Source: Candidatus Zixiibacteriota bacterium
Lineage (GTDB): Bacteria > Zixibacteria > MSB-5A5 > GN15 > PGXB01
Length of the DNA: 64,000 nt
NCBI GenBank assembly: GCA_900498245.1
Contig: LS998015.1
Location: forward strand, 743,206-807,205
Reading direction: 5' to 3'
A program made the position numbers and the translations under genes. The notes below the pieces were generated by a model. That model was not told the DNA's origin. It searched no databases and was given only the letters and a program-made list of their open reading frames with translations. Positions 28,801-54,969 of this stretch are shown in pieces. How positions within the stretch are numbered: position 1 is the stretch's first letter; the number at the start of each line of letters is the position of its first letter.

Positions 28801-31800
28801 ATGATGAGAAGAGTTATTTTCATTGCGGCCGGAGTGTTCCTGTGCGCGGCCATGATTCCGACAGGGATCAGGGGGGATCAGCCGGCGACCCCGCTGAGTC
28901 CGGAAAGAATGGCCCAAGTCAATGCGGTTTATGCCGTGGTGAATACCATTGACGGCGGCGCGGGGAGTCTCCGGCAGGCGATAATGAACGCCAATCTGGG
29001 CGTCGGGCCGGATATCATCACTTTCAATATTGTCGGAGTCGGGCCGCACACCATTACTCCGCTTTCGCCTCTTCCGGCCTTAACCGATATGGCCGGAGTG
29101 TTTATTGACGGCTTTACCCAGCCGGGAGCGGCCCCCGGGGCCAATCCGCCGGCCACGGCAGCACTTCAGATTATTCTCGACGGCTCTCTGGCCGGAGCGG
29201 CCGACGGGCTAGTGATACAGTCGGATAACAATGTCATTCGCGGGCTGGTCATAAGTTATTTTCAGCAGAACGGCATTTATATTCATGCCACCTATGAAGC
29301 CGCCAATAATCTTATCTACTGCAATTTTATCGGGACCGATGTCAGCGGGACAGCGGATCACGGTAACGGCACCAATCCGGCTTCGCTCTGGGGCGGTGTC
29401 TATATCGATAATCAGCCGGGCGGAAGCGCCTTTGCGAATACTATCGACGCCAACTTGATTTCAGGAAATTATGCCGAAGGCGTTTCGATAATCGGGCCGA
29501 GAGTTCCCGGCGATGTTTACGGCAATTTCGTGTTGAGAAATTATATCGGCACCGACATAGCCGGAACGGCCGATTTGGGCAATGACCACGATGGAGTCTG
29601 CCTGTCGGAAGGGACCCACGATAACAAGGTCAGCCACAACCTCATTTCAGGAAACGACTATGACGGTGTGGGGATAAACGGGTTCAACAATGTTCAATAT
29701 GCCGCACCGCCGATCCAGACCTATTTGAATATTGTGGACAGCAATATTATCGGGCTCGATGTCAACGCCAGTAATATCCTGCCGAACAGCACTCACGGCG
29801 TCGCTATCGGCACCTATGGCCCCTCGTTCTGGGGGTGCGCCGACCGCAATCGGATCGGACCCGATAATATAATCGCCAGTAACGGCGGTATCGGCGTGGG
29901 CGTGTGGGAAGACGGGGTTAATAATTTCAATGCCGACCAGAATACGATCACGGCCAATTCCATTTATAATAACGGTGGGCTGGGTATTGACCTGGTCAAT
30001 AATGGGGTGACGCCTAACGACCTGGGGGATCTTGATACGGGACCGAATCAGGAACTCAATTTCCCGGTAATTACGCTAATAACTTTTGCCGCCGGGACCA
30101 CGACCATAACCGGTACCATCGGCATTGATACACCACCCAATCAGGCGCTGGTCGAGGTTTTCAAGGCCCGTACCGATCCGAGCGGTTACGGCGAGGGTGA
30201 AATTTTTGTCGGCAATGCCGTGCCGGACGCGTTGGGGAACTGGACATTGGTGACTCTGGCTCTGGCCCAGGGTGATAATGTGACCGCCACAACGACCGAT
30301 GTAAATGGAAACACGTCGGAATTCTGCGCCAATATGGCGTTGCCGGGAATTCCCGAACCGGATACCTGCGAATATTATAAGGCGCCCTATCCCGATTATG
30401 CTCCGAATGGGATGCCTGATTTTGATCAGAAACAGAACGGCTGGTCTATTCCGGGTCAGCCGACCCCGCAATGGACCCATTGCGGGCCGGTGGCTCTGGC
30501 CGACTGCCTCTGGTGGTTCGACTCCAAATTCGAGACGAATACCACGCCGCCCCCGGCAGTTATCGACAACTATCCGTTGGTGAGGAACTTTACACCTCTG
30601 ACGGTTGACGATCACGCCGCCTCGAACGTGATTCCTTTGGTGGACACTCTGGCCAAGTATGCCTTGACCAATATCGGCGGTTCCGGAACGACCGTGCAGA
30701 ATCTGGCGACCGCGGCGGTATCCTGGATCGACAGTGTGGGGTTGAGCCAGTGGTATACGGTAAGACTTTTCCCGATCGATCCGGCCTTTGGCTTTGATTC
30801 GATCAAGCAGTGGGTTCTGGAGAGCCAGGATGTAATTTTACTTCTCGGCTTCTGGCAGGAAGCCGGTTCCGGATTATGCGAGCGAATCGGCGGGCATTAT
30901 GTAACGGTCGCCGGAACTTGTACGGACGTGGTGGATTCGGCGCTATGCATCTCCGATCCTTATTATGATCATAACGAAGGGGAGCCACCGGCGGGAAGCG
31001 CGCACGGCTCCGGGGTTCATAATGACGCCGCTCTGGTTTCCGGTCCGCACGGCACGATTCATCACGACCGGTACAATGTCATACCGGCGGGATGTGTGCC
31101 GATTCAGGCGCCGGTATTCGCAGTCGAACTGGCCAATTATCCTGTGACTCAGGCCGATGCCGCGCAATTTCAGGGTCAGAATCAATTCGACCCGGCTATT
31201 CCGGGGACCACCCCGATGGGGACGCCGATTCATACCATCATTGAATTTGCCATCGTGATCTGCCCGGTGGCCGATTCCGACGGCGACGGCGTTCCGGATC
31301 CGAATGACAACTGTCCGCATACCTATAATCCGGATCAACTGGATACCGACCAGGACGGTGTCGGCGACGCCTGCGACAACTGCCCGTACAAGTACAATCC
31401 CGATCAGGCCGATTTCGACGGCGACGGTGTCGGGGATGTCTGCGACAATTGTTATAATGTGCCAAATCCCGGTCAGACCGATGTTGACCGCGATGGGGTA
31501 GGCGATGTTTGCGACAATTGTCCCGGCACATATAATCCGGGACAGGAAGATATCGATGGCGACGGTGTCGGTAACGCCTGCGATCCGGATTATCCCGTGT
31601 ACTATAAGCCGGGGTATCCCGATTACGCTCCCAACGGCATGCCTGATATCGATCAGAAGCAGATGCCGTGGACAAACGGTCCCCAGTGGACCCATTGCGG
31701 TCCGGTGGCCGTGGCCAACTGTCTCTTCTGGTTCGATTCCAAATATCAGTTCCTGATCAACCCGGCGTCACCGCCCCCGCCGGCAGTGAGTGACGATTTC

Positions 31801-32748
31801 CGTCTGATTACTAGTCTGGCGCCGGCAGTGATCGATGATCATGATCCCGCTAATGTCCAACCGGTCGTTAATGCTCTGGCGGCCGGGATGGGTACCGGTC
31901 CGGCCGGAACCGATATCAATATGATGCTGGCATATATGAATACCTATCTGGCGGGCCTGGGGCTTGATGATTCCTTTGAAGTCCACATCTATCCTCAGCC
32001 GGAGTGGGTTTTCATTCAGGACGAGGTCAAACGAAGCCAGGATGTCATCATGCTTCTCGGCTTCTGGCAGCCCGATCCGTCGGTTCCCGGCGGGTGGTCG
32101 CGCATCGGCGGTCATTATGTGACCGTGGCGGGAGTCGATACGGGAGGCGCGGTGATTAATCCGTCGGTATATATATCCGACCCGTATTTTGATCTGCTCG
32201 AAGGCGATCCGCCGGCCCCGATGCATGGTTCGGCAATTCATAATGATCTGGCCCTGGTGTCGGGACCTCATGGGACCAATTATCATGATGGATATCAGGT
32301 GACGGTATCGCCGAGCCCGGGTGGGGTATTCGGGCTTCCCGGCTATCCGATCATGGCGGGTCAGGGTTATCCGGTGCAGTTTAGCGGGCTCAATTGCCCA
32401 CCGGAATTCAATATTCTGCAGAGGCCCTGGCTTGGCGGACCTATCAATACGGAAATCGAGTATATTATGACCATTTGCCCGAAGGAATATGTCTGTGACT
32501 GCAAACCGGGAGACGCCACCGGCAACGGGGTCTACAATATTCTTGACGTCTCTTATATCATCAATTTCCTGTATAAATACGGTCCGGCCCCGGTTCCATA
32601 TCCATTATGCTCGGGAGATGCCAACTGCAATTGCGCCATCAACATTCTCGATGTATCGTATCTGATAAACGCTATTTATAAGGGCGGTCCCAAGCCGTGC
32701 ACCTGCGAAACGTGGGTAGCAACCTGCGGAGCGCCACCGCATAAATAG
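28801..32748 (+). CDS. secreted beta-helix protein with two C39-like peptidase domains, TSP3 repeats and dockerin
   Basis: The 1315 residues run: signal peptide (to about 25), right-handed beta-helix (about 45-430, with [10 protein letters not shown] and NLISGN turns), an Ig-like segment, C39-like domain 1, five thrombospondin type-3 repeats (about 825-929), C39-like domain 2, and a C-terminal type I dockerin with two NILDVSY helices. Each C39-like domain has [19 protein letters not shown] and ISDPY, giving candidate triads C561/H699/D719 and C966/H1105/D1127. Both also keep [13 protein letters not shown]. Fold assignment is from motifs. Activity is untested, and the Q-to-C spacing is shorter than in classic C39. 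Confidence 0.8.
31273..31584 (+). repeat. five thrombospondin type-3 calcium-binding repeats (coding)
   Basis: Units such as [20 protein letters not shown] recur about every 23 residues, with Asp-rich calcium loops and paired cysteines. They form a rigid linker between the two C39-like domains. Confidence 0.9.
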
Positions 32749-35092: not shown

Positions 35093-36535
35093 ATGAAAGA
35101 CAAACTTAATAACGCCCTTGAATGGCTGAAGGGGAAAGGGGTCGATTACGCTGACGCCCGGATGGTGCGAATCGAGTCGGAATCGATCAAAGTCACCGAT
35201 GATACGGTCGACACATTTTCCCGGAATGTCAATGTCGGCGTGGGGGTGCGGGTAATTTGCAGCGGCGCCTGGGGCTTCGCCGGAGTGTCATCGCTCACCG
35301 AAGCCGATATCAAGAAAGCCGCCAACAAGGCCCTGCAGACGGCCAAAGCCTCCGCTACTACGGTCAAGGACAAGGTGAAATTGGCTCCGACCGAAATTTA
35401 CAAAGATCATTATAAGTCGCCGTGCGAGAAAGATCCGTTCGAGGTGCCGGTACACGAAAAGATCGGACTCTTGATGGAAATTGCCGACCGTCTCCGCAGC
35501 GACAGCCGGATAAAGACGGCGGAATCATCGGCCGATTTCTACAAGACCAAGAAGATTTTCTGCTCGACCGAAGGGGCCGAAATCGAGCAGGATATTATCG
35601 AATCGGGCGCCGGGTATACGGCTATCGCCTATGATGGTAACGAGGTGCAGAAACGTTCGTATCCCAATTCGCATCGCGGTGATTTCGCCACGAGGGGGTA
35701 TGAGAATGTCGAAGGATTGAAACTTCTGGAAAATGTCGATCGGACCCGGGAAGAGGCGATTCAACTTTTGACCGCCGATCCCTGTCCCAACAAGACGACC
35801 GATATTATCATCTGCGGCTCGCAATTGGCGCTTCAGGTGCATGAATCATGCGGTCACCCGACCGAGCTGGATCGGGTTCTGGGGACGGAGATTTCCCTGG
35901 CCGGCGGGTCGTTCATGCAGATCGACGGCCTCAATAAGCTGAAATACGGCTCGGATATTGTCAATATCAACGCCGATGCCACGATTCCGGGCGGGCTGGG
36001 TTCATTTGGGTATGATGACGAAGGTGTCAAGGCCCAGCGGGCGCCGATAATCCGGAACGGTGTTCATGTCGGGTACCTGACCAGCCGGGAAACGGCTCCC
36101 GTAATCGGGCAGACCTCGAACGGCACCATGCGGGCCGACGGCTGGAACCGTCTGCCGATTATCCGTATGACCAATATCAACCTGGAACCGGGGGAGTGGG
36201 AACTCGAGGATCTGATCGCCGATACCAAAGACGGAATATTTTTCGATATGAACAAATCGTGGTCAATCGATGACAAGCGCCTCAATTTCCAGTTCGGCGT
36301 GGAATGCGCCTGGGAAATTAAGGACGGCAAACTGGGCCGGATGCTGAAAAATCCGCTTTATACCGGAATGACGCCGAAATTCTGGAATTCCTGCGATGCC
36401 ATCTGCAACAAGAAATACTGGCATGTCTGGGGGGTGCCCAACTGCGGCAAGGGAGAGCCGATGCAGACGGCGCGCGTGGCCCACGGCACCGCTCCCGCCC
36501 GGTTCCGCCAGATAACGGTGGGGGTGAGCAAATGA
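35093..36535 (+). CDS. tldD: TldD subunit of the TldD/TldE metalloprotease
   Basis: The 480-residue product carries the TldD zinc motif HExxxH as HESCGH at residues 250-255, within ALQVHESCGHPTELDRVLG. TldD/TldE heterodimers thread and degrade unfolded peptides, and in other bacteria mature modified peptides or antitoxins. TldD holds the catalytic metal. GGAGG precedes the ATG. It overlaps tldE by 4 nt (ATGA). No peptide precursor gene is seen nearby. Confidence 0.94.
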   Translation: MKDKLNNALEWLKGKGVDYADARMVRIESESIKVTDDTVDTFSRNVNVGVGVRVICSGAWGFAGVSSLTEADIKKAANKALQTAKASATTVKDKVKLAPTEIYKDHYKSPCEKDPFEVPVHEKIGLLMEIADRLRSDSRIKTAESSADFYKTKKIFCSTEGAEIEQDIIESGAGYTAIAYDGNEVQKRSYPNSHRGDFATRGYENVEGLKLLENVDRTREEAIQLLTADPCPNKTTDIIICGSQLALQVHESCGHPTELDRVLGTEISLAGGSFMQIDGLNKLKYGSDIVNINADATIPGGLGSFGYDDEGVKAQRAPIIRNGVHVGYLTSRETAPVIGQTSNGTMRADGWNRLPIIRMTNINLEPGEWELEDLIADTKDGIFFDMNKSWSIDDKRLNFQFGVECAWEIKDGKLGRMLKNPLYTGMTPKFWNSCDAICNKKYWHVWGVPNCGKGEPMQTARVAHGTAPARFRQITVGVSK

Positions 36536-37884
36536 CCGGAAAAGAAAAACTATTCACGCTGTTTGAAAAAGTGGCCAAGGCCAGCAAGGCCGATGAGACC
36601 GAAATTCTTTATATCGGCAACAATACCGGGCTGACCCGTTTTGCCAATTCGATCATTCACCAGAATGTGAATGAAGCCAACGCCCGGATTATTTTCCGGA
36701 CTGTCTATGGGAAGAAAATCGGGGTGGCATCGACCAATTCGCTCATTCTGAATGATCTCAAAGCGACGCTTCGCAACGCGATGGAAATAGCCAAGTATCA
36801 GAAGGACAATAAATATTTCGACGGCCTTCCCGGGCCGGAAAGTTATCAGCCGGTTGATACCTATTATGATTCGACCGCGGCCTATTCTCCGAAAGATCGC
36901 GCTCGGCAGGTGAAGAAGATATTTGTCCGGGCCAATAAGCGGAAATTTCTGACGGCCGGGGCACTGACAACGGGCGACGGAGAGATAGCGGTTTTCAACA
37001 CCAAAGGGGTCCGCTGTTATCAGCCGTTCACCTCAGCCTCGTTGAATATAATCGCCATGTCGGAGACGTCATCGGGTTACGCGGTCGGTCTTTCGCGCAA
37101 GGTGGAAGATATCGATCCGGTCGCTTTAGCCGATATCGCGGTGGAAAAGGCCTATATCGGGAAAAAGCCGAAACCGCTTGAAGCGGGCGATTATGAAATA
37201 ATTCTCGAGCCGGCGGCAGTGGCGGCCCTTTTCGAATGGGTCAATTATATCGGATTCGGCTCCAAGGGATTTATCGACAAAACCTCCTTCCTCGCCGACA
37301 AAATCGGCCAGAAGGTGATGGACGAATCGGTCAGTATTTATGACGACGGCAATGATCTGTCGGCTATCGCCATGCCGTTCGATTTCGAGGGAGTTCCGAA
37401 GAAGAAGGTCTATCTGGTTGAAAAAGGGATCGGCAAGGGAGTGGTTTTCGACCGAACGACCGGCAACCGGATCGGGACCAAATCGACCGGGCACGCTCTT
37501 CCGGCCGGGGAGCAGGGAGAAGGGGCGATGCCGCTCAATCTCTTTATCGATCCGGGGAATAGGACCCGCGAAGAGATGATCGCCTCGGTCAAGCGGGGAG
37601 TGCTGGTGACCCGGTTCCATTATATCAACGGCTTCATCGACACGCCCAAAGCGCTGCTGACAGGGATGACCCGCGACGGCACATATCTTATTGAGGACGG
37701 CCAGATAAAGCACGGGGTGAAAAACCTTCGATTCACCGACTCGATGCTTCGGGCTTTCTCGAACGTGAAAGGTATCTCGCGGGAGCGCCAGTTGATACCG
37801 TCGTGGTGGGACGCGGTCGGGTGCATTTCGGCGCCGGCATTTCATCTGGGTTCGTTCAAGTTCACCGGGACGACTGAGTTTTAG
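36532..37884 (+). CDS. tldE: TldE/PmbA subunit of the TldD/TldE protease
   Basis: The 450-residue paralogue of TldD lacks the HExxxH motif, as expected for the non-metal-binding partner. It has the PmbA-type C-terminal half (YEIILEPAAVAALFEWVNYI, FINGF-like YHYINGFIDTPKALLTGM). It is translationally coupled to tldD by the 4-nt overlap. Together they should form the heterodimeric protease in the cytoplasm. Confidence 0.92.
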   Translation: MTGKEKLFTLFEKVAKASKADETEILYIGNNTGLTRFANSIIHQNVNEANARIIFRTVYGKKIGVASTNSLILNDLKATLRNAMEIAKYQKDNKYFDGLPGPESYQPVDTYYDSTAAYSPKDRARQVKKIFVRANKRKFLTAGALTTGDGEIAVFNTKGVRCYQPFTSASLNIIAMSETSSGYAVGLSRKVEDIDPVALADIAVEKAYIGKKPKPLEAGDYEIILEPAAVAALFEWVNYIGFGSKGFIDKTSFLADKIGQKVMDESVSIYDDGNDLSAIAMPFDFEGVPKKKVYLVEKGIGKGVVFDRTTGNRIGTKSTGHALPAGEQGEGAMPLNLFIDPGNRTREEMIASVKRGVLVTRFHYINGFIDTPKALLTGMTRDGTYLIEDGQIKHGVKNLRFTDSMLRAFSNVKGISRERQLIPSWWDAVGCISAPAFHLGSFKFTGTTEF

Positions 37885-37959: not shown

Positions 37960-38055
37960 TAATCAAGGCAAATATTCGGTGCATGTTACTGTGCATAGTT
38001 CGCATACAACTGACAGAGCATGAATTGTCTTTGCATATTAAGGAGGGTCGAATCA

Positions 38056-38823
38056 ATGGAAAATTTAGGATTGCTTTTTATTTCTTTCATTTTATTAATG
38101 GGTGGCGCCCCTCAGCCCAAAAATGAAATGGATGACAGTACGCGCACCTCCATCAGGGAATTTGTATTTGGGCATTATCATAAATATGATATAGATACAA
38201 GCGGCTCAGAACCTATGATTGGAGTTATTCTTGAGACGGACGGTAATAGAAAACAGCTTGACTCTATTGGGATGATTATTTACTCCATTGATAGGAATAG
38301 AGTATTTGGGAAAATCCCAATACGGCTGATTTCACAGGTGAGTGGGCTCACTTCAGTAAAGAAATTAATCCCCAATTTGCGACTTTCATTAGATGTCGTT
38401 CCTGGTGAGCGAAAAGGATCCTTGTATCTCTCGTTCGATTCCCTGAATCAGATCGCTTCTGACACAGTGGAAGTATTTCTTCTAAAATACGGTAATTACC
38501 GGGGTGAAGTATCATTTGATACTATTTATCAATATACAGTGCCGTTACAAAACGACACCTCATATTTGATCGGCAATATAGAAGAAGGGTGGTATGACGT
38601 TTATCTTTTCCCGGGTATCATAAAATCACCACCAATCAGGAGAGGAGCGGAATTCTCATTTGAAAGTGATTCACCGGCGATTATTTATAAGAAATTGATA
38701 ATTATGAACCGAATGACCTCCGTCATGGATTTGAGAGGGGAAAAATGGCCCGCTCTTGAAAAAGGGAGCGCCGATTCAGCAGCAGTCATTCAAGAATGGA
38801 TTCCGAAATATCTGAAAAAATAA
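38056..38823 (+). CDS. exported protein with free-standing homologue of the neighbouring subtilase prodomain
   Basis: The 255-residue product starts at ATG 38056 with TTAAGGAGG upstream and has a signal-like segment (LGLLFISFILLMGGAP). Residues about 30-105 align by eye with the prodomain of the next gene: KYDIDTSGSEPMIGVILETDG against LYDIDTTTTPPTIGVIVEANG, and GKIPIRLISQVSGLTSVKKL against CKVPIDSLEILAGLSAVKCY. The rest (about 110-255) is beta-rich and unrecognised, and no catalytic domain is present. Such prodomains act in subtilases as inhibitors and folding chaperones, so this may be a trans-acting inhibitor. The gene lies 24 nt upstream of the protease and shares its AT-rich composition. 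Confidence 0.75.
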   Translation: MENLGLLFISFILLMGGAPQPKNEMDDSTRTSIREFVFGHYHKYDIDTSGSEPMIGVILETDGNRKQLDSIGMIIYSIDRNRVFGKIPIRLISQVSGLTSVKKLIPNLRLSLDVVPGERKGSLYLSFDSLNQIASDTVEVFLLKYGNYRGEVSFDTIYQYTVPLQNDTSYLIGNIEEGWYDVYLFPGIIKSPPIRRGAEFSFESDSPAIIYKKLIIMNRMTSVMDLRGEKWPALEKGSADSAAVIQEWIPKYLKK

Positions 38824-38847
38824 ATTTAATATCTTCGGGAGGCAGGT

Positions 38848-41034
38848 ATGTTGTCAAGCATACGCATATTTATAAGCGTCATTTTTATTCTTGGCATATT
38901 GGCCCATTCTTTATCTTTCGCCGCATCGAAAAGAAATTGGGAGCTTATGCTGGAATATTCTCCTTTATATGATATTGATACCACTACGACGCCGCCCACA
39001 ATAGGCGTTATCGTTGAAGCCAACGGAGACTATCATGATTTGGAGAATGTGGGTGCGGAAATATTGAGTATAAAAGGACATCGGATTAATTGCAAAGTGC
39101 CGATCGATAGTTTAGAAATTTTAGCCGGTCTTTCGGCTGTGAAATGCTACTCATTTAATAGTAAAATTGAATTAGATTTGGATATGAGCGCCGTTGCCAT
39201 AGGTGCGCCTGAAGTCTGCAATCAAAGCGGATATACCGGCAAGAGCGTAATTGTTGGCATTGTGGATGGCGGTATTGACGCACATCATCCAGATTTTCAG
39301 AGGGGTCAAAATAATACGCGATTCCTTTATATTTGGGATCAGATGGACACAAGGGGCTCGCATCCATCTAATTATTATTACGGTTCAGAATACAGCAAGA
39401 GCGATATAGACGGAGGCCAATATATAAATGGTGGGTCGTATTGGACGGATGCTTATGGACATGGAAGTGTGGTGACCGGCATCGCCTGCGGAGGGGGACG
39501 GGTAGGCGGAAATGGCATCGAAGCGGGAAAATATACAGGTATAGCTAAAGATGCAGACATTATTTTTGTTCGGATGCTGCCCTTATATGCAAATATCGAG
39601 GATGCCGTGGAATATATTATCGAAAAGGCAGAATCCCTAAAGCGACCCTGTGTCATTAATTTAAGCCTCGGTTATAAAGGAGGGCCTCGGGACGGTACAA
39701 GCCCATTTGAACGCTTTATGGATAAACTATTGACCGATTATCATGAAAGATCAGTTGTTATTGTCAATTCCTGCGGAAATACCCGATTTGATGCGAACAA
39801 TGCCGAGGTGGCCTTTAATCCACAATTGTGGGGCAAAAATCGTGACCATATAAGATTTTATGATGATGAGACTATGGTGGTAAATGTGGGATCCGGTTTA
39901 TATAATCAAGATTATGTTTCAATAGAAATATGGTATCACGCCAATTCGGAAACGAGAATATCCGTTACAGCTCCATTAATGGATTCGCTTGGTAATAGCA
40001 CTCCATTTTGGATAGGGTCATATGAGTCGGGAAACGGAAATGGATGGCCGGGCGAGGGGTGGGACATGCCAGGTATCGGATTTGTTAAAATTCATAATGA
40101 AGACTGGGATGCAAATCATCCTGATCCATACCCGTATACATATGATCAAGTTGCGACTGTTGAGATAGCTGATCATGATTATGACCTTTCACCCGGCGAC
40201 TGGTTTATAAGTATGAGTGATGTAAATGGACCATGGGATGCCTACATCACATATCAGGATCATGGGCTGAATTTATATTCATTTTTGGAAAATGATGCTA
40301 ATTCATATGAAGTTAATGAACCGGGAAATTCTTCCTATATTATTACTGTTGGTTCAATTAATACAAAAAACAATTGGTATGATTGCCTGGGAATGTCAGT
40401 GCCCGGGCCGGCACCATATGATAAATTTGATGCACTCGGCTTTCCGATTAATCAAATATCTTTTTTCAGCTCGTTGGGCCCTACACGGGATGTCAGAACC
40501 AAACCTGAAATTTACGCCCCTGGTGCTTGGGTCGCAAGCACTTGCCCCGATAGTCTGCTTTATGCATATTCAAGCACAGGTATGAGATATTCATTGGCAG
40601 ATGACTGTCGCCATATCCTTATGCGGGGTACCAGTATGTCCGCGCCCCACGTTACCGGTGTAGTTGCTCTAATGCTCGAAAAAAATGGTTTCCTTTCTCT
40701 TAATGAAATTCGTAATGCATTATTTTCAACCGAATTGGCCAATGGTATGGTTAACGCTCCAGGCGCCATTGCGGCTATTCCTCCGGCCTGCATTCCGGGA
40801 GATGTTAATGGGGATAGAACCATTAATATTATAGATGTGAATGGATTAATTAGTTTTCTATATAAAGGCGGTGCAAGCCCATCACCATATGCAATTTGCT
40901 CGGGCGATGCTGATTGCAATTGTCGGCTAAATATTCAAGATGTATCTACAATTATAAATTTTCTTTATAAATCAGGGCCTTCTCTTGGGGATCAGAATAC
41001 ATGGGTGCGTAATTGCGGCAATCCGCCGCAATGA
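38848..41034 (+). CDS. secreted subtilisin-like protease with prodomain and C-terminal dockerin
   Basis: The 728 residues comprise a signal peptide (to about 26), a prodomain (about 37-112), an S8 catalytic domain with D140 (VGIVDGGIDAHHPDF), H205 (AYGHGSVVTG), oxyanion Asn in NSCGN and S596 (GTSMSAPHVTG), and a type I dockerin (about 650-715; GDVNGDRTINIIDVNGLISF and a second repeat). The long distance between His and Ser reflects an inserted beta domain of about 190 residues. GGGAGGC precedes ATG. Its base composition is much more AT-rich than the flanking genes, suggesting transfer. Confidence 0.9.
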   Translation: MLSSIRIFISVIFILGILAHSLSFAASKRNWELMLEYSPLYDIDTTTTPPTIGVIVEANGDYHDLENVGAEILSIKGHRINCKVPIDSLEILAGLSAVKCYSFNSKIELDLDMSAVAIGAPEVCNQSGYTGKSVIVGIVDGGIDAHHPDFQRGQNNTRFLYIWDQMDTRGSHPSNYYYGSEYSKSDIDGGQYINGGSYWTDAYGHGSVVTGIACGGGRVGGNGIEAGKYTGIAKDADIIFVRMLPLYANIEDAVEYIIEKAESLKRPCVINLSLGYKGGPRDGTSPFERFMDKLLTDYHERSVVIVNSCGNTRFDANNAEVAFNPQLWGKNRDHIRFYDDETMVVNVGSGLYNQDYVSIEIWYHANSETRISVTAPLMDSLGNSTPFWIGSYESGNGNGWPGEGWDMPGIGFVKIHNEDWDANHPDPYPYTYDQVATVEIADHDYDLSPGDWFISMSDVNGPWDAYITYQDHGLNLYSFLENDANSYEVNEPGNSSYIITVGSINTKNNWYDCLGMSVPGPAPYDKFDALGFPINQISFFSSLGPTRDVRTKPEIYAPGAWVASTCPDSLLYAYSSTGMRYSLADDCRHILMRGTSMSAPHVTGVVALMLEKNGFLSLNEIRNALFSTELANGMVNAPGAIAAIPPACIPGDVNGDRTINIIDVNGLISFLYKGGASPSPYAICSGDADCNCRLNIQDVSTIINFLYKSGPSLGDQNTWVRNCGNPPQ

Positions 41035-41295
41035 TTATTTTCGCCAGCAATATTGGACGCTCTCTAATTCCTCCGGATTATGCAAGGCTAGCATCCCTTT
41101 GTCGCCCAATGGACTAGTTTCAAAACTAATTTCACACTTATTGGGCGGTATTTTAATCCCTAGGCCGATTTCAGGCTAGTTTATCCCTAAAATTCTGTTA
41201 GTTTTTTATTCGACAGATCCGCAACTTTGCTATGCCTGAAACCGTAAATAACTCATAGATTGGTATAAGCTTATTGCGCCCAAAGGAGGAAAAGT

Positions 41296-43053
41296 GTGAC
41301 ATTGAAAGTGATCCTGATTGCCGTGGCATTGTTTCTGGTCCTGAGCCTGATTCTTGTGGTCGGGGCGGTATCGGTCAAAGCCGACGACACCGTGATTGAT
41401 ATGACCGATTTCCAAACTGGGGATCTGGTGGTTGACGGCTTCGAATTGAAAGGACAAACCAGGGTCACCATTCACGCTATCGGGGCGGCCCTTAAAAATA
41501 CCGAGGACCTTTATGCCTACGGTTGGATAATCGACGCCGATTCGCGCGAACCGGTCTGGATTCAGAGCGATCAGGAATCGCATCGCTACAAAGGCTCCAA
41601 TTATTTTCGGGAATTCGAGGGGGAAATAACCCTTCCGGCGGGACGTTATGAATGTTATTACTATGCGTCCCGGCCCTTTTATACCGACCTCGATATCAAA
41701 TTCGATGATTTGGGCAAAGCCCTGGAATTTCTGGGAGATTTTATCGGCAAAAATGATGAAAACCAGAAATATTACGATGAAAATCTCGACGCTCTTCTTT
41801 TTGAAATAACCGCCCCGGCCGGTCTTTTTACGAAATTCAATCCCTCCAAAAATATAGGGGAAAACAGTATTATCGAATTTTCCCAGCCGGGCAATGATTA
41901 TACCGGGAAAAAGGGGTTTACTCTTAAAAAGGACCTGAATTTAAAAATAATCGCGGAGGGGGAGTATTCCTCCAGCGACCGGGTTTTTGTCGATTACGGC
42001 TGGATAATAAATGCCGACTCGCGCAAAAAAGTCTGGCAGATGGATAAATGGAACACATCATGGTCGGGCGGCGCCCGCAAAAATCGCGGCTTTATCGGCG
42101 ATGTCAGCCTGCCTGCCGGCAATTATATCGCCTGCTATGTCACCGATGACAGTCATACTTTCGGGGATTGGAACAGCCTGCCTCCCTATGACCCGCTCCA
42201 TTACGGATTCAATATTTATACTCAAAACGCCGCCGATAAGCAGTATGTCGCTCCTTATGAAGATACTTACAGCGAGCCGTTAATTATTTCCTTGACCCAC
42301 ATCGGCAATAATGCCTTTAGATCCAAAGCCTTTACTCTCAAGAAACCGACCGATTTGCATATTGTCGCGATCGGGGAGTACGGCTACGATGATGCCTTTG
42401 TCGATTACGGCTGGATTGAAAATATCGATGATAATGACAAAGTCTGGGAAATGGCCGAAGAGAATACCGAGCATGCCGGCGGGGCCTCGAAAAACCGCAA
42501 ATTCGACGGCATCGTTACTTTGCCGGCGGGGAATTATATGGTTTATTATACCTCCGACGATTCCCATTCCTATGGCGACTGGAATGCCACCGCCCCTCTG
42601 GATCGCGATATGTGGGGTATAACTATTTTCGGCGCCGGCAAGAATTTCGATCCGAAAATGGTCGAAGTGCATGATCAGGAGCCGGCCAATCCCAATATCC
42701 TGGTTAATCTGACCGGCATCGGCGATGACGCCGATGTGGAGGAGGATTTCAAAATTTCCGTGCCGGAGAAGGTGCATATTTTCGCGCTGGGGGAGGGGCG
42801 CGACGGGGAAATGTTCGACTACGGCTGGATTGTGAATAAGAAAAACGGGGAGACGGTCTGGGAAATGACCTATCGCATGACCCGTCACGCCGGCGGGGCC
42901 GACAAAAATCGCAAAGTCGAATCGGATATCTATCTGGAACCGGGTCAGTATGAGGCCCACTTTGAGACTGATGATTCCCATTCTTTCCCGGATTTCAACG
43001 CCGCCCGGCCCGATATGCCGCAGAAGTGGGGCATTACCATCACTAAAAAATAA
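41296..43053 (+). CDS. membrane-anchored protein with four copies of an unrecognised beta domain
   Basis: The 585-residue product starts at GTG 41296 (AAGGAGG, 6-nt spacer) and has one N-terminal membrane segment (about 5-25). Four repeats of about 110-140 residues follow. Each has a YGWI element (residues 75, 234, 371 and 509), then a VW element, a LPAG(N/R)Y turn, and in copies 2-4 a DDSHSxxDWN-type motif and a final WGI(T)I strand. Repeats 2-4 are closest to each other and repeat 1 has diverged. I do not recognise the family. It is probably extracytoplasmic. The Asp/His-rich motif hints at metal or ligand binding, which is inference. Confidence 0.8.
   Translation: MTLKVILIAVALFLVLSLILVVGAVSVKADDTVIDMTDFQTGDLVVDGFELKGQTRVTIHAIGAALKNTEDLYAYGWIIDADSREPVWIQSDQESHRYKGSNYFREFEGEITLPAGRYECYYYASRPFYTDLDIKFDDLGKALEFLGDFIGKNDENQKYYDENLDALLFEITAPAGLFTKFNPSKNIGENSIIEFSQPGNDYTGKKGFTLKKDLNLKIIAEGEYSSSDRVFVDYGWIINADSRKKVWQMDKWNTSWSGGARKNRGFIGDVSLPAGNYIACYVTDDSHTFGDWNSLPPYDPLHYGFNIYTQNAADKQYVAPYEDTYSEPLIISLTHIGNNAFRSKAFTLKKPTDLHIVAIGEYGYDDAFVDYGWIENIDDNDKVWEMAEENTEHAGGASKNRKFDGIVTLPAGNYMVYYTSDDSHSYGDWNATAPLDRDMWGITIFGAGKNFDPKMVEVHDQEPANPNILVNLTGIGDDADVEEDFKISVPEKVHIFALGEGRDGEMFDYGWIVNKKNGETVWEMTYRMTRHAGGADKNRKVESDIYLEPGQYEAHFETDDSHSFPDFNAARPDMPQKWGITITKK
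41502..43050 (+). repeat. four tandem coding repeats of the YGWI/DDSH domain
   Basis: The YGWI anchors are spaced 159, 137 and 138 residues apart. Copies 2 to 4 share GGAxKNR and TDDSH-like phrases in the same order. Confidence 0.8.
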
Positions 43054-43142: not shown

Positions 43143-44849
43143 TTACGATGAAATTCCGGCGGGCGATTCGACCGAGACCCGAATCGGGAAGTTGACGGCT
43201 ATGACCGTTCCCACATCGGGAGTCGAATCGACCTTGAGCGTCCCCCCGTGGATATCGATAATACGGCGGCAAACCAGAAGCCCGAAACCGTGCCCGTCCT
43301 TTTTGGTGGTGAAGCGCTGCTGGAAGGCGATTTCCTGGCGCTCTTTGTCGATGCCGGTGCCGTTATCGGTGACTCTCAGAATGAAGTTTTCATCGCCGCC
43401 GGAATATTTTATCTCCACTTCGATCAATCCCGCAAAGCCGTCCCCTTTTTCATGAATAGCGTCGGCGGCGTTGTTCACCAGATTATAGAGGAGTTGCTGG
43501 AGTTGAGACATATCGGCGAGGCTGAAAAGCGGAACATGGGGAACGGCCAGGCGAAAATCGATATTCCGCATATGGTTTTGCGCTTTCAGATATTCAATGA
43601 CATCGGTCACCAGGGAAGTAATACTGCATAATTCGAAATTCGGGGTCAGAGCGGAGAAGTCCATCAGTCCCTGAGAGAATTTGCGGATACTCTCCATGTT
43701 ATTCATGACGGCGCCCAGGTATTTGTCCAGTTCCTGGTAATTCTGTTTGCGGAGATGATGTTCCAGAAGGGAGAGATTACCGGAGGCGACACCGAGGAAA
43801 TTATTCAGTTCGTGCCCGATTTCGGCCGACATTTGACCGCGGACGGCCATTTTTTCCAGTTGAATGGTCTGCTCCTGCAGTTCCTTGAGCCGGGCGTAAG
43901 CATTTCTGGTTTCATCGAGGAGAATTATATTTTCGAGTGAAATGGCGATTTGATTGGCGGTGATAGAGAGAAGCTGTAATTCGCTGCCTTTCATCGTTTC
44001 GGCATCGGGGGGCAGGCCGAGGATCAGAAATCCGTAGAGTTTGGGCCCGCGCCGCAGGGCGATGTTGACCAGCCGATCCCCCGGTGTATGCCAGGAAGGA
44101 ATCAAGACGGCGCCGGCCTCCGGATTGCCGGAATTGCGGTAAACGGGATGCTCTTCGAGTGATGAAATGGTGAAAGGCGCGTTCAAGGTTGGGTCGCTAC
44201 AGGCCAGGTAGTCGCGTGCGATTTTATGCGATGACTCTTCGAATTGACTCTCGTTGAGATTGGCGGTACCTATGACCCGGATTTCGTTTTCATGGCTGCT
44301 GCGATAGACGATGGCGCCCCGGGAAACTTTCCCCTGCATCATGACAAAACCGAGGGAGAGGCGCATCAGGGATTGCATATCCCCGACGGTATAAATGAGT
44401 TGATTGAGATCCGAAAGCCGTCCCAGTTCGGTCACGAGAGTCTTTTCGGTATCTTTCTGTTTCTTTTTGACGGCGTTCCTGACGGCCTGACGCATTTCAT
44501 TCAATTCAAAGGGCTTCATGATATAATCATAGGCCCCTTCCTTGATAGCGTCTTTGGCCGAACTGAGATTGGCATAACCGGTCATGAAGATGACGCCGAT
44601 GCCGTTTATTTTTTCCCGGATACGCTGGGCCAGTTCGATCCCGTCGCATTCCGGCATTCGGATATCGGTCAGGAGAAAATCAAAATACTCCGATTCGGCT
44701 TTTTGAAGGGCGACGGCACTGCTGGGGGCGAGTTCGATTTCATACCCGGCATCCTCCAGCGCATCACGCACCAGTGAAAGGACGATTTCCTCGTCATCGA
44801 CCACCAGAATACGGACGGTCCGGCCCTCTATTTGGGGTGAATCTTTCAC
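43143..44849 (-). CDS. hybrid receiver-GAF-histidine kinase
   Basis: This 568-residue soluble protein has an N-terminal receiver (ILVVDDEEIV, LLTDIRMPECDG, IMKPFEL), a GAF-like sensor (about 150-300), an H-box (SAEIGHELNNFLG), an N-box (NLVNNAADAI) and HATPase G-boxes (VTDNGTGID, GHGFGLLVCRRII). No transmembrane segment is present, so it should receive phosphate or signals from the upstream proteins in the cytoplasm. Its ATG overlaps the stop of the preceding receiver gene by 4 nt. Confidence 0.92.
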   Translation of the reverse strand: MKDSPQIEGRTVRILVVDDEEIVLSLVRDALEDAGYEIELAPSSAVALQKAESEYFDFLLTDIRMPECDGIELAQRIREKINGIGVIFMTGYANLSSAKDAIKEGAYDYIMKPFELNEMRQAVRNAVKKKQKDTEKTLVTELGRLSDLNQLIYTVGDMQSLMRLSLGFVMMQGKVSRGAIVYRSSHENEIRVIGTANLNESQFEESSHKIARDYLACSDPTLNAPFTISSLEEHPVYRNSGNPEAGAVLIPSWHTPGDRLVNIALRRGPKLYGFLILGLPPDAETMKGSELQLLSITANQIAISLENIILLDETRNAYARLKELQEQTIQLEKMAVRGQMSAEIGHELNNFLGVASGNLSLLEHHLRKQNYQELDKYLGAVMNNMESIRKFSQGLMDFSALTPNFELCSITSLVTDVIEYLKAQNHMRNIDFRLAVPHVPLFSLADMSQLQQLLYNLVNNAADAIHEKGDGFAGLIEVEIKYSGGDENFILRVTDNGTGIDKERQEIAFQQRFTTKKDGHGFGLLVCRRIIDIHGGTLKVDSTPDVGTVIAVNFPIRVSVESPAGISS

Positions 44850-45223
44850 CTGTCTGCCAGCACTTTTTTCTTTAAGATTCGATTGACGGTTTTTTTCAAT
44901 TCCTGCAGGTCGAACGGTTTGGTCAGGCAGCAGATGGCGCCCATCTGGGCGGCTTCCTCCGCTTCCCGTTCCGGGAAAGAGTCGGTCATGATAATGGGGA
45001 CATCGGGCCGGACGGCTTTGATTTCCGAAACAGCCTGAAGGCCGTTCATTACCGGCATATGGACATCGCAGAATATCATGGCGTAGTCATTAGCCAGAAC
45101 CATTTCAAATCCTTCCTTGCCGTCGGCGGCGGTGTCGACCTCAAATCCGGAATCGGTTAAAACTTCCTCCAGGAATTTTCGGATGACCTGAGTATCATCA
45201 ATAACAAGAATTCTATCAGCCAT
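44846..45223 (-). CDS. single-domain response regulator (receiver only)
   Basis: This 125-residue CheY-like protein has acidic D9-D10, phospho-acceptor D53 (FCDVHMPVMNG) and K102 (LTKPFD). The segment after the conserved Thr reads MTDSF rather than the common MTA. No output domain is attached, so it is likely a phosphate shuttle or protein-binding regulator. It overlaps both neighbours (4 nt downstream, 8 nt upstream). Confidence 0.93.
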   Translation of the reverse strand: MADRILVIDDTQVIRKFLEEVLTDSGFEVDTAADGKEGFEMVLANDYAMIFCDVHMPVMNGLQAVSEIKAVRPDVPIIMTDSFPEREAEEAAQMGAICCLTKPFDLQELKKTVNRILKKKVLADR

Positions 45224-45620
45224 AGAGGCCTCCTTCGGCCCCGGACTTTTCAGATGACTTTAATGATTTTTCTACCTCGGTTCGTAATTGCTTTATGGTA
45301 AAGGGCTTGGAGAGAAAGGCGCAGACTCCATAGCCCAGGGCGCTGCCGACGGAAGAAAGACTGGAATATCCCGAAATCACGATTATATTTATATGCGGAT
45401 AGGTCTCGCGGGCAAATTTAACGACCTCCTCGCCGGAAACGCGAGGCATTTTCATATCGGTAATGACGAGGTCGAATTCTTTTTCCTTCATCCTCAAGAT
45501 CGCTTCATCACCGTCAGAGGCCTTTTCCACGGTGAAATCCTCGAGGACGTCCGACAGGAATTCCCGCATAACTTCTTCGTCGTCAACGACTAAAATCGAT
45601 TTGTTTGCCAAATCTGCCAT
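45216..45620 (-). CDS. single-domain response regulator (receiver only)
   Basis: The 134-residue CheY-like protein has D13-D14, D55 (VITDMKMPRVSG), the Ser in VISGYSS and K in LSKPFT. It ends in a short Gly/Glu-rich tail without an output domain. It overlaps the second receiver gene by 8 nt and follows the membrane kinase by 30 nt, so it is likely its immediate phospho-target. Confidence 0.93.
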   Translation of the reverse strand: MADLANKSILVVDDEEVMREFLSDVLEDFTVEKASDGDEAILRMKEKEFDLVITDMKMPRVSGEEVVKFARETYPHINIIVISGYSSLSSVGSALGYGVCAFLSKPFTIKQLRTEVEKSLKSSEKSGAEGGLYG

Positions 45621-45650
45621 AGGTGCTAATTTATTCCCAATTTAAATTCT

Positions 45651-47303
45651 TCAGGCGCTGTATTGTTTTTCGACAGAAATGCCCTTTTTCTCCAGTGGCA
45701 AAATGATGGTAAAGATTGAGCCCTGGCCGAGCCTTGATTTGACCCGGATTTCGCCGCCATGTTCCTTAATGATGCCGTAGCTCACCGAGAGTCCCAAACC
45801 GGTTCCTTTGCCGACCTCTTTAGTGGTGAAGAACGGCTCAAAAATCTTCTTCAAATTTTCTTCGCTGATGCCGGTGCCCTGGTCGGCGACGGCCACTTCC
45901 ACCGCTCCGGCGAATTCACCCAAAGGCGGGAGGAAGCGGGTCGAAATCGCTATTTCGCTTCCCGGTTTGGAGGCGTGCATGGCGTTGATGATGATATTGG
46001 TGAAGACCTGCTGTAACTGACCGGGATTCCCCTGCGTTTTCGGTATATTCCGATCGATTGTCTTGCGCAGAGCGACTTGATTCATCATCAACTGATGATC
46101 GATGAAAGTCAGCGTTTCTTCCAGGACCTGATTAATATCGAGTTCCAGGAATTCGACCGTCTGGGAGGTCCGGGAGAATTTCAGGAGGTTCTGGACGATG
46201 GCCTTGCAACGGCGGGATTGGGTTTCAATGTCGCGCAGGTACCGCTTGTATGATTCCATATCCTTCGGCTTAAGGTCATGAATTTCCTTATTTTCGATTT
46301 TTTCCAGGGCGAACTGGGCATAGCCGAGAATACCGCCCAGGGGATTATTGAGTTCGTGAGCGACACCGGCCGCCAATTGCCCGATGGCCGCCATTTTCTC
46401 CGATTGAATCAATTGCGCCTGCGCCCCTTCCAGTTCACAGGTTCGCTCGATAATTTTTTCCTCGAGGGTGCGGTTGTAATCCTCGATTTCCTGCTGCGAC
46501 TTCTTGAGGGAGGCGATCATGCGGTTGAACGACATCGCCAGCATACCGATTTCATCTTTCCAGGTGATATCGACGGTCTTGCTCAAATCACCCTTGGAGA
46601 TTTTATCCGTGATTTCGGCCAGGGATTCGATCGGCCGAACAATGATCCGGACGAAGGCCGTCATTATGATAATAGCGGACAGCACCACCATAAGCGTGAG
46701 CAGGATGGCGGCGGTCTGCGATTTGGAGACCTCGCGGTTGAGATTGGCCAGGGTCAGGCCGATGCGAACCTCACCGATCTTTTCATAGACGGAACCGCTG
46801 GTATGATTGACGGCGACGGCACCCAGATTTTCCTTGGATATTTCTTTGCGCATGGTTCTAACCTGATGGCGCAATTCGATAAAATCATCGCCCGCTTCGG
46901 AACGGTATAAATAATGGGAGAAGAGCGCCGAATCGCTCTGCTCGGCGTCGGATTGATTCGGCACCAGAGCGGCCTTCTCGGTTAGATTGCGTCCTATTTC
47001 GGCGAGCACGCGGCCGTCGCTGGCCACGATTTTGACATAGACGATATCATCGGAGAGCGCCACCCCTTTTATCAGATTTTCCAGTTCCTCTTTCGATTCC
47101 AGGATGACGCCGTATTCGGCGTTATAGGCGAGGTTGGCGGCCAGGGCTCGTCCCCGCTTTTCCAGTTCCTGATGATAAATTTCATTCTGGCGCTTGATCA
47201 GGTAGCCGCTGATGATGAGCATGCTGACGACAATCACCAGAGAGACGACGGCCACGAATTTTTCCCGCAGAGCGAGATTGCGAAGGAGGCTGAATACGCT
47301 CAT
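45651..47303 (-). CDS. membrane sensor histidine kinase
   Basis: The 550 residues contain a first transmembrane helix (about 15-36), a periplasmic sensor region of about 170 residues, a second helix (about 205-228), a HAMP domain ([20 protein letters not shown]), a coiled coil, the H-box ([20 protein letters not shown]), the N-box ([12 protein letters not shown]) and HATPase boxes ([24 protein letters not shown]). Its start overlaps the binding-protein gene by 4 nt, suggesting that protein feeds its sensor. Confidence 0.94.
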
Positions 47304-48268
47304 CGGTATACCTCCTTGGCCACCGCCGCCAGATCGTCGGGGATAGATATGTTGATATGCTTGGCCGTTTTCTCGTTATAGTGGAACCAGATAATACCGG
47401 GAACGGCGACCGGAATATTGGCCGGCGGTTTGCCGGAAATGACTTCGGTCGCGATTTTTCCGGCCTGCCGGCCGATATCCTTGTAATCGAAGTCGAGGGC
47501 GAAAAGGGCTCCCGATTCCACCAGGTTGCGCGAAAATCCCATGAACGGTTTGGAGTTTCGCAAAGTGTTCAGAAGAATAAATCTCGTGGAACTGGGCGAG
47601 AAGATATTTTTGTCGGCTACCGACCAGATCCCGTCGACACAGCGATCCAGGGAATCGAGAGCCGCCGGGATATCTTTATCGCTGTTAATTTTAAGGGCCA
47701 CGAGTTCCAGCCCGGCCGCTCTCGCCATAGCGCGAGCCGGAGGAATGAGATTTTCCGTTTCCGAGGTGTATAGAACGCCGATCCGTTTCAGATCTTTGAT
47801 GACCCGTTTGAAATATTGAAACTGGATGTCGGCCGGGATGTCCAGCGATGAGCCGGTTATGTTTCCTCCGGGATTGGAGAGCGTGCGGACGAAGCCGGAG
47901 GTCTCGGGATTCAAGACGGCCGAGAAGACAATCGGCTTATCCTTGATGCGATCCGATATCACCTGGGTCGCAAAGGTTCCCACGGTCAGAATCAGATACG
48001 GATTTATCTTTCTGATGGTACTGATGTTGTCATCGATCGCGGCGGCATCGCCCGAGAGGAAGACCTCATAAAAGGTCGCCGATGAATATTGCAGACTGAT
48101 AGCCGAACGGATACCCTTTATGGTCCGGAGAGTGGACTCACTGCTGTCGGAATGGACCACCGCCAGTTTGATATCATTTTGGGCGGAGAGTCTTTGGGCC
48201 GGCAGGCACAGGGCGAGAACCGCGCCGATAAGCAGTAGAAACTTTCTGACTTTATAGTACAAAAACAT
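47300..48268 (-). CDS. ABC-type periplasmic substrate-binding protein (TrpX-like, PF04392 type)
   Basis: From ATG 48268 the 322-residue product has a signal peptide (YYKVRKFLLLIGAVLALCLPA). The mature part matches the ABC_sub_bind family: NPYLILTVGTFATQVISDRI, KPIVFSAVLNPETSGFV, NITGSSLDIP and IGVLYTSETEN. The frame is open to a TTG at 48334, but the later ATG starts the signal peptide. No permease or ATPase gene is adjacent; instead it is coupled to a kinase, so it likely works as a periplasmic sensor subunit. Confidence 0.85.
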   Translation of the reverse strand: MFLYYKVRKFLLLIGAVLALCLPAQRLSAQNDIKLAVVHSDSSESTLRTIKGIRSAISLQYSSATFYEVFLSGDAAAIDDNISTIRKINPYLILTVGTFATQVISDRIKDKPIVFSAVLNPETSGFVRTLSNPGGNITGSSLDIPADIQFQYFKRVIKDLKRIGVLYTSETENLIPPARAMARAAGLELVALKINSDKDIPAALDSLDRCVDGIWSVADKNIFSPSSTRFILLNTLRNSKPFMGFSRNLVESGALFALDFDYKDIGRQAGKIATEVISGKPPANIPVAVPGIIWFHYNEKTAKHINISIPDDLAAVAKEVYR

Positions 48269-48385
48269 TCCCGGCGTGTCGCCTCGGAGAAGTGTTAATC
48301 TATCCAAAACATTCACCTGTTTACTTCCTGTCAATCCAGTTGAGGCATATGTATCAATCTGATTATCGGGGAATTGCCGGAAAAC

Positions 48386-53964: not shown

Positions 53965-54969
53965 ATGTTAAAAAAGATCCTAATTGTGATGACCGCAGTT
54001 GTCCTGTGCGGGACAGCTCTGGCCGGCGAATTCTCTAAAACCGGAACCGCCGGCGCCCAGTTTCTGAAAGTCGGTGTGGGAGCCAGATACCACGGGCTGG
54101 GCGAAGCCAGTGTCGCCACGGTTAATGATATCTACTCGATGTACTGGAACCCCGCCGGCCTGATCAATATCAATAACAGCGAAGTGGCTTTTACTTATGT
54201 CAATTATCTGACCGATGTAAATCTCAATTATGTAGCGTACGCCCGCCGCATGGGGACTCTCGGGGTTTTTGGGGCCTCGGTGACCGTCCTTTCCATGCCG
54301 GATCAGGAGATTACGACGGTTGATCAGCCGGACGGTACCGGATATAAGTATTCCTCTTCCTCCTTTGCGTTTCAGTTGAGTTATGCCACTCAGTTGACCA
54401 GCCAGTTTTCGTTCGGCTTGAGCGCCAAGTATCTGGGGGAGAAGATATACAGGGAGAAGGCCTACGGCTTTGCTTTTGATTTCGGGACTCTTCTCTACAC
54501 CGGTTATCGCTCGCTTCGGATCGGCATGAATATTTCCAATATGGGACCGGAAATGAAATTCGACGGGCCCGATCTCGATGTTTTTTACGATCCGGATCAA
54601 TCGAATCCCAACCAGGACCCGTTCAACAGCCGTCTTAAGACCGACCCCTATGATTTGCCGCTTCTTTTCCGAATCGGGATGGCGTATGACTGGCAACTGG
54701 GGAGCCGGATGAAACTGACCACGTCCGGTGAAGTCAAGCATCCCAATGATAATATCCAGCAGGGTTCGCTGGGGGCGGAATTGAACTGGAACGAACATTA
54801 TTTCCTGCGGGGTGGATATAAGTTCAACTATGAGGAAGAAGGGTTGGGCCTGGGCGGCGGTTTGCAGACCAAATTGACTGAGACGACCGATCTGGTTATC
54901 GATTATGCCTGGGTTGATTTCGGGCGGCTTAATGCGGTTCACCGGTTTTCGGCGTCAGTCAGGTTTTAG
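53965..54969 (+). CDS. PorV/PorQ-family outer-membrane protein
   Basis: The 334-residue product has a signal peptide, then the family opening (GTAGAQFLKVGVGARYHGLG, YSMYWNPAGL) and alternating strands ending in FSASVRF with terminal Phe. PorV in type IX systems shuttles CTD cargo at the outer membrane, so pairing with a CTD protein 11 nt upstream is suggestive. It could also be a general FadL-like barrel of the family UPF0164. Confidence 0.88.
   Translation: MLKKILIVMTAVVLCGTALAGEFSKTGTAGAQFLKVGVGARYHGLGEASVATVNDIYSMYWNPAGLININNSEVAFTYVNYLTDVNLNYVAYARRMGTLGVFGASVTVLSMPDQEITTVDQPDGTGYKYSSSSFAFQLSYATQLTSQFSFGLSAKYLGEKIYREKAYGFAFDFGTLLYTGYRSLRIGMNISNMGPEMKFDGPDLDVFYDPDQSNPNQDPFNSRLKTDPYDLPLLFRIGMAYDWQLGSRMKLTTSGEVKHPNDNIQQGSLGAELNWNEHYFLRGGYKFNYEEEGLGLGGGLQTKLTETTDLVIDYAWVDFGRLNAVHRFSASVRF

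Follow-up and report, generated by a model that had tools for sequence, protein, structure and literature searches.

The locus at positions 41296–43053 of the window, by which we mean the whole 64,000-nt stretch of Candidatus Zixiibacteriota bacterium DNA that was analyzed, raises the question of what its quadruple repeat is and what such an array might do. The open reading frame has exact bounds (GTG at 41296, stop at 43053, 585 aa), with a ribosome-binding site lying 6 nt 5′ of the GTG. A dN/dS of 0.069 against L061, a relative from the same genus, indicates purifying selection on the gene. The hydrophobic N-terminus closes with a VKA/DD junction that could be a signal peptidase I site, and the protein is probably secreted or otherwise exported. 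The features of the gene are as follows.

41296–43053, forward strand: gene for the 585-aa four-domain protein, probably exported (open reading frame, relatives, dN/dS 0.069)
41282–41289, forward strand: ribosome-binding site AAAGGAGG, read in the sequence
41296–41382, forward strand: N-terminal hydrophobic signal or anchor segment, residues 1–29 (sequence, and a model helix over residues 3–25)
41383–41838, forward strand: copy 1, a site-less domain that keeps W77, W88, G116 and Y118 and is without the E, the D, DDSH and DWN
41863–42225, forward strand: copy 2, residues 190–310, with E223, D233, W247, K262, N263, D284, S286, H287 and N293
42277–42636, forward strand: copy 3, residues 328–447, with E361, D370, W384, K399, N400, D421, S423, H424 and N430
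42694–43050, forward strand: copy 4, residues 467–585, with E500, D508, W522, K537, N538, D559, S561, H562 and N568
42145–42156, forward strand: DDSH of copy 2, from the sequence
42556–42567, forward strand: DDSH of copy 3, from the sequence
42970–42981, forward strand: DDSH of copy 4, from the sequence

The presence of four repeats, as the earlier note had it, was borne out by a profile, by related genomes and by the four beta-sandwich domains of a predicted structure. The profile built from the four window copies scored copies 1–4 at 151, 183, 185 and 175 bits (by construction), and the four repeat matches in the window's genome all fall within this gene. Plain self-BLAST of the 585-aa protein returned the whole-length self match and no inter-repeat match, so an alignment or profile is needed to see the repeats. 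The same note had all four copies keeping YGWI, VW, LPAGxY, DDSH, DWN and WGI, which holds for YGWI and VW (4/4 copies) and is overstated for the rest: LPAG occurs in three copies (LEPG in copy 4), DDSH in three (absent from copy 1), DWN in two (DFN in copy 4, none in copy 1) and WGI in two (YGF in copy 2, none in copy 1). Copy 1, which spans about residues 30–181 and includes low-confidence model stretches at 129–138 and 149–159, carries YGWI, VW and LPAG only, and the full motif set is found, small departures aside, only in copies 2–4.

That the repeat belongs to no named family also held at the sequence level, where the window protein had no Pfam or NCBIfam match above the curated cut-offs and gave weak matches in Pfam (best E 0.013), PHROGs (best E = 0.0042) and PDB sequences (best E 1.2). 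A match of a single repeat to a characterized family was looked for among 58 repeats (alignment A2, made of three window repeats and 55 of the 63 repeats from 21 loci picked out of 60), and none was significant, the best Pfam E being 0.0086; the best PDB-sequence match of the repeat profile was 1w9s (E 0.51), which we take to be a CBM6. The nearest relative was DUF5013 (PF16405), itself a domain of unknown function, which was matched over only about 50 residues: the 128-aa protein L185 reached 27.4 bits (E 4.3e-6) against a cut-off of 28.5, and the window protein, also below the cut-off, 16.1 bits (E 0.013). CUB (PF00431) gave no row for the window protein at a Pfam E of 10 and was not among the 20 Pfam families matched by any of the 58 repeats at E 1, and neither PPC (PF04151) nor CBM6 gave a Pfam row for the window protein or the 58 repeats. 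CUB homology was likewise not significant by profile–profile comparison, with hhalign of A2 against a small, divergent alignment of bacterial CUB domains (eight of 18 matches) giving a probability of 0.7% and an E of 0.083, a comparison made weak by the CUB side. A known sequence family was set aside, as nothing above a curated cut-off covers the domain in the window protein, the repeats or the scanned relatives. Four peptide motifs of the repeat drew no papers, and among the papers listed on DUF5013, Zixibacteria, SpoIIE propeller sensors and bacterial CUB/PPC domains no title or abstract opening describes it.

The domain is also found in proteins of other kinds. By Pfam, it occurs in Reg_prop/Y_Y_Y sensors together with SpoIIE (L177, L178 and L181) or with a histidine kinase (L179, L180 and L225, the last with two copies). 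In these sensors it lies N-terminal to Y_Y_Y, in a region that is extracytoplasmic in the known layout, and L182, L183 and L184 hold a repeat domain of the same size and place as in the propeller sensors. Propeller sensors host one or two copies; in the window protein, Pfam finds neither a propeller nor a kinase or phosphatase domain. In two PF00144 serine hydrolases from the Acidobacteria-search genomes (L226 and L227) the repeat domain is C-terminal to the catalytic domain; their NCBIfam matches are far under the cut-offs, so we do not call them beta-lactamases. L185 is the repeat domain alone, encoded beside a PF00144 gene. There are also three-copy arrays with a degenerate copy 1 (L228–L230 from the Acidobacteria search, L186, L187 and L190), and a Gemmatimonadota genome encodes a two-copy protein (L236) with, by eye, a membrane-like segment.

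Because the last three window copies look closely related, it had been proposed that the array expanded recently. This view was refuted by the old, wide distribution of four-copy arrays over several phyla, by the grouping of repeats by position in a tree, and by the divergence of the window copies, which share 51–56% base identity, with synonymous differences saturated for copies 2 and 3 and near saturation for copies 3 and 4. The repeat profile (E 0.001) matched 80 of the 132 genomes searched in the window's phylum, 73 of them with exactly four repeat matches. No match was found in 26 of the 78 genomes there that are at least 90% complete, so the four-domain gene is dispensable to some members. 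From a wider contig scan the best 80 of 306 relatives' loci were retained, a sample biased to conserved members since the scan patterns required HAGGAxKNR or F[AV]DYGWI[EQ] and the best matches were kept. Among these 80 are records titled Zixibacteria, KSB1, Ignavibacteria/Melioribacteraceae, Bacteroidetes, Calditrichota, Gemmatimonadetes, Latescibacterota, Acidobacteria and Thermoanaerobaculaceae, among others, and four-copy proteins with a degenerate copy 1 are shared by Zixibacteria and records from at least six more groups at phylum level. Matching frames (n = 83) held four copies in 74 cases, three in five, two in three and one in one, several of the nine frames with other than four being cut at contig ends or split over two frames. 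Profile matches were also found in 67 of 395 genomes from the phylum of a Cyclobacteriaceae record, 19 of 199 from that of an Acidobacteria record and 8 of 200 from that of a Gemmatimonadota record.

The repeat tree comprised 87 repeats over 115 columns, with 28 of 84 inner branches open, and drew on 23 four-copy proteins, six of the eight sensors, three hydrolase-linked domains and three divergent arrays, copy 1 being excluded. Position labels changed five times for R2, five for R3 and four for R4, where shuffled labels gave about 20. No position forms a single clade, and one R3 (L101) sits among R4 rows; the window's R2, R3 and R4 each group with the same position of other Zixibacteria. Copies 2–4 of the divergent arrays L188, L189 and L171 form one supported set (99/87) and do not group by position, suggesting that these arrays expanded separately a second time or changed in concert.

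Conservation was assessed in alignment A4, for which 74 four-copy ORFs were reduced to 71 with a matched start and no more than 720 aa (L129 was unmatched; L092 and L115 were too long); 62 of these, with the window protein, gave 63 full-length rows. In copy-3 numbering, E33, D42, G68, K71, N72, G84, D93, H96 and N102 are present in 63/63 rows in each of copies 2, 3 and 4. G113 is present in 63, 63 and 62 rows (one gap), W56 in 62, 62 and 63, and S95 in 56, 59 and 63. In copy 1, the E33 place holds E in 0/63 rows (A in 37, G in 8, others) and the D42 place holds D in 1/63 (A in 48), whereas both Trp, the Gly and the Tyr are present in 63/63; copy 1 has thus kept the residues of the fold and lost E and D. 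In the groups of sensors and divergent arrays, which overlap the earlier loci in part, count some genes twice, and leave four rows unplaced and two as "other", E33, D42, K71, N72, D93, H96 and N102 are present in 8/8 one-copy sensors, and the divergent arrays mostly conserve E33, D42, N72, D93 and H96, with K71 and N102 varying. Copy 1 of the divergent arrays has E33 in 5/12 four-copy and 2/3 three-copy rows, so that the loss there is incomplete. Retention of the invariant set in a lone sensor domain, and joint loss of E and D in copy 1 of the main group, are as a binding site would behave. On these grounds a metal-binding role of the conserved Asp and His, as the earlier note suggested, is plausible: both are invariant together with E33, D42, K71, N72 and N102, and the order of residues recalls the calcium site of CUB domains.

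Structure prediction, one of the checks put forward in the earlier note, gave a confidently modeled beta-sandwich closest to PPC and CUB domains. AlphaFold2 predicted four beta-sandwich domains for the whole protein on the 63-row alignment (mean pLDDT 89.8, pTM 0.81), and modeled one repeat on 58 rows with pLDDT 95.2 and pTM 0.88. With VIA-align the single repeat best matched the PPC domain 5sv5 (Z 8.5, 2.9 Å over 90 residues), followed by Kremen (Z 8.1, 2.3 Å over 88 residues) and C1s CUB1 (1nzi_B; Z 8.0, 2.4 Å over 90 residues), with PPC and GOLD rows at similar Z, although a Z of about 8 may reflect merely a common arrangement. Of the 50 best rows, 23 are presumably CUB-bearing proteins, judging in part from their titles, and we take the folds among the best rows to be mostly binding domains. 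For the whole model, 5sv5 (Z 8.3) and 1nqj (Z 8.1), both PPC-type, and 1nzi_B (Z 7.8) were among the best. Foldseek gave five whole-model matches at E ≤0.001, all with rmsd of at least 11.9 Å, and for that reason the single repeat was folded and searched instead; it had no match below E 0.001, with TMq 0.55 for the C1r/C1s rows 6f1h_C and 1nzi_B.

Foldseek ranks 2–4 for the single repeat were CBM35, CBM6 and MiXBM, and together with the non-significant profile match to 1w9s (E 0.51) they favor a different reading, in which the domain is a CBM6/CBM35-like carbohydrate-binding module, the array binds envelope or environmental polysaccharide, and there is no CUB-type calcium site. Trp, Asn and Lys are frequent in sugar-binding sites, and their invariance here would fit. 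These three rows, however, have TMq 0.38–0.42 and rmsd 6.2–8.0 Å, compared with 0.55 for C1r/C1s; none of the best 50 VIA rows is a CBM, an absence that is no proof, and the scanned fusions contain no glycosidase domain. We consider a carbohydrate-binding module unlikely. An enzyme with an E/D/K/N/D/H/N active site is very improbable in our judgment: seven polar residues are indeed invariant across 63/63 proteins in copies 2–4, but the domain is a small tandem beta-sandwich that is itself fused to catalytic domains, and its nearest folds are mostly binding domains.

The reading that we prefer is a binding domain with a CUB/PPC-like fold. In the model, E33 and D42 lie near the turn of one hairpin, on its two strands (24–34 and 40–48), and N72 and D93 lie at or just past the open end of a second (72–81 and 84–91). 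The calcium/ligand site of C1s CUB1 consists of Glu45, Asp53, Asp98 and Ser100, according to PMC4222235. The repeat has the same order in E33, D42, D93 and S95, on a register that we infer, and both domains have a conserved G in the last strand following E...D...D-x-S. The E-to-D spacing is 8 in C1s and 8 in 62/63 copy-4 rows, and is 7–10 in copies 2 and 3 save for one row with 24; the D93-to-S95 spacing is 2 in all rows. From this order we predict a site resembling the calcium/ligand site of C1s CUB1, and a CUB-like calcium site is our best single model for the invariant set. The repeat differs from CUB in that no A2 column has Cys in 20% of rows and in an additional loop, carrying the conserved N and P, that separates D93 from the last strand. 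PPC domains are bacterial and exported together with peptidases, and include the collagen-binding domains of collagenases; although PPC is the best VIA match of the repeat, the window protein has no peptidase domain by Pfam.

Gene neighborhoods were compared across 94 loci with an anchor gene. In the window itself, two features flank the array gene.

35093–37884, forward strand: TldD/PmbA-type metallopeptidase pair, two genes from the array gene; context and no proven partner (Pfam, synteny)
43143–47303, reverse strand: convergent two-component cluster (RR-HATPase, RR, RR, HAMP-HisKA kinase); context (Pfam, synteny)

PmbA lies no more than three genes upstream of the array gene in 16/94 loci, 15 of them in records titled Zixibacteria, and is adjacent in 11; TldD is nearby in 13/94. 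A functional role for TldD/PmbA was considered and set aside, the link being synteny in 16 loci and both proteins acting in the cytoplasm. The first gene of the two-component cluster holds the same place in nine close relatives. The cluster is headed by an ABC_sub_bind protein (47300–48334, reverse strand), and several close relatives have a like-sized gene there. In L070, whose record is titled Ignavibacterium, the gene itself and its surroundings, with PmbA upstream and the kinase cluster downstream, are like those of close Zixibacteria relatives, and the record may carry the wrong label. Six of seven picked divergent arrays face, on the other strand, a gene similar to the one facing L188, the sole one scanned, which is GAF-SpoIIE by Pfam; L186 has little flank there.

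An Omp85-type gene lies no more than two genes away on the same strand in 13/94 loci, DUF4097 is directly downstream of the array gene in 8/94, and a LiaF-like gene is found in 3/94 (26.6 bits, below Pfam's 29). Omp85 is upstream of the array in Calditrichota and KSB1 records and in a further record with no title but "bacterium"; in three Bacteroidetes/Ignavibacteriae records it lies downstream, and the link between array and Omp85 has thus outlived rearrangement. With starts set at the first possible codon, Omp85-side gaps are 8–19 nt in L101, L103, L121 and L135, which suggest operons of Omp85 and array, and 163 nt in L097. The Omp85 and PmbA neighbors are each lineage-specific, and the flanking genes scanned around the window gene include no Omp85. 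This tight same-strand linkage, upstream or downstream by lineage, favors the domain being a protein–protein docking scaffold for outer-membrane proteins (Omp85/DUF5686, LiaF-like, DUF4097), its invariant residues being structural. Against this, the same residues are invariant in 8/8 sensors, where the setting is another one, and copy 1 retains its Trp, Gly and Tyr positions without E and D, which therefore seem unneeded for the fold; we regard the scaffold as a doubtful explanation.

Several further observations concern the surroundings of these genes. Between PmbA and the array gene, the window has two low-GC genes at 38020–41034 (forward strand; 39% and 42% GC, GC3 0.38 and 0.36) where L061 has just 143 nt, and they therefore look inserted. 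One of them encodes a subtilase whose dockerin match falls just short of the cut-off (38848–41034); the 267-aa protein encoded at 38020–38823 and the subtilase N-terminus are alike by eye (YDIDT...IGVI.E..G), as though the small protein were a separately encoded propeptide or inhibitor for the protease. Signs of type IX secretion in the window's genome are a PorV-like protein (53965–54969) and a subtilase that carries both PKD repeats and a Por secretion tail (8296–10896). A 1315-aa protein with thrombospondin type 3 repeats is encoded at 28801–32748 (forward strand). Two Omp85-type proteins of relatives (L084 5722–8010 and L101 7001–8605) have an N-terminal bactofilin-like stretch, an unusual join, which is above the Pfam cut-off in L084 and just below it in L101; L130 is similar by eye.

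The signal-like N-terminus, the sensors, the hydrolase tails and the envelope-gene neighbors point to a binding domain outside the cytoplasm. With a probability of about one half, we read the repeat as a widespread, unnamed extracytoplasmic binding domain with a CUB/PPC-like fold and a probably metal-dependent site; in the window protein, three copies have this site intact and one is site-less. On this reading, the repeat would be a ligand-binding beta-sandwich of about 115 residues in which E33, D42, N72, D93, S95 and H96, with K71, W56 and N102, would form one site, most likely holding a divalent ion, probably Ca2+, plus a ligand. The exported protein would present three such copies, with the N-terminal copy 1 serving as a spacer or docking domain, and the array could have its role in the cell envelope, either as a multivalent binder or by supplying the binding component of a system that senses the envelope. 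A more speculative version, which we think quite improbable as a whole, would make the domain a bacterial counterpart of the calcium-binding CUB and have its Ca2+ site hold envelope peptides by their cationic (lysine- or diaminopimelate-like) groups. Singly or doubly it would serve as the input of histidine kinase and SpoIIE proteins, fusion would link it to PBP/beta-lactamase-like hydrolases, and secreted proteins with three to four copies of it would report on or organize the envelope across the FCB group and Acidobacteriota.

For the biology of these bacteria, the finding is of a domain spread over several phyla, and present in the sensory part of signaling proteins, for which the searched family libraries have no entry. 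A name would bring annotation to the secreted arrays, the sensor inputs and the hydrolase tails together, and the invariant site, through metal or ligand binding by a 115-residue domain, would offer a direct and cheap handle on what the sensors perceive.
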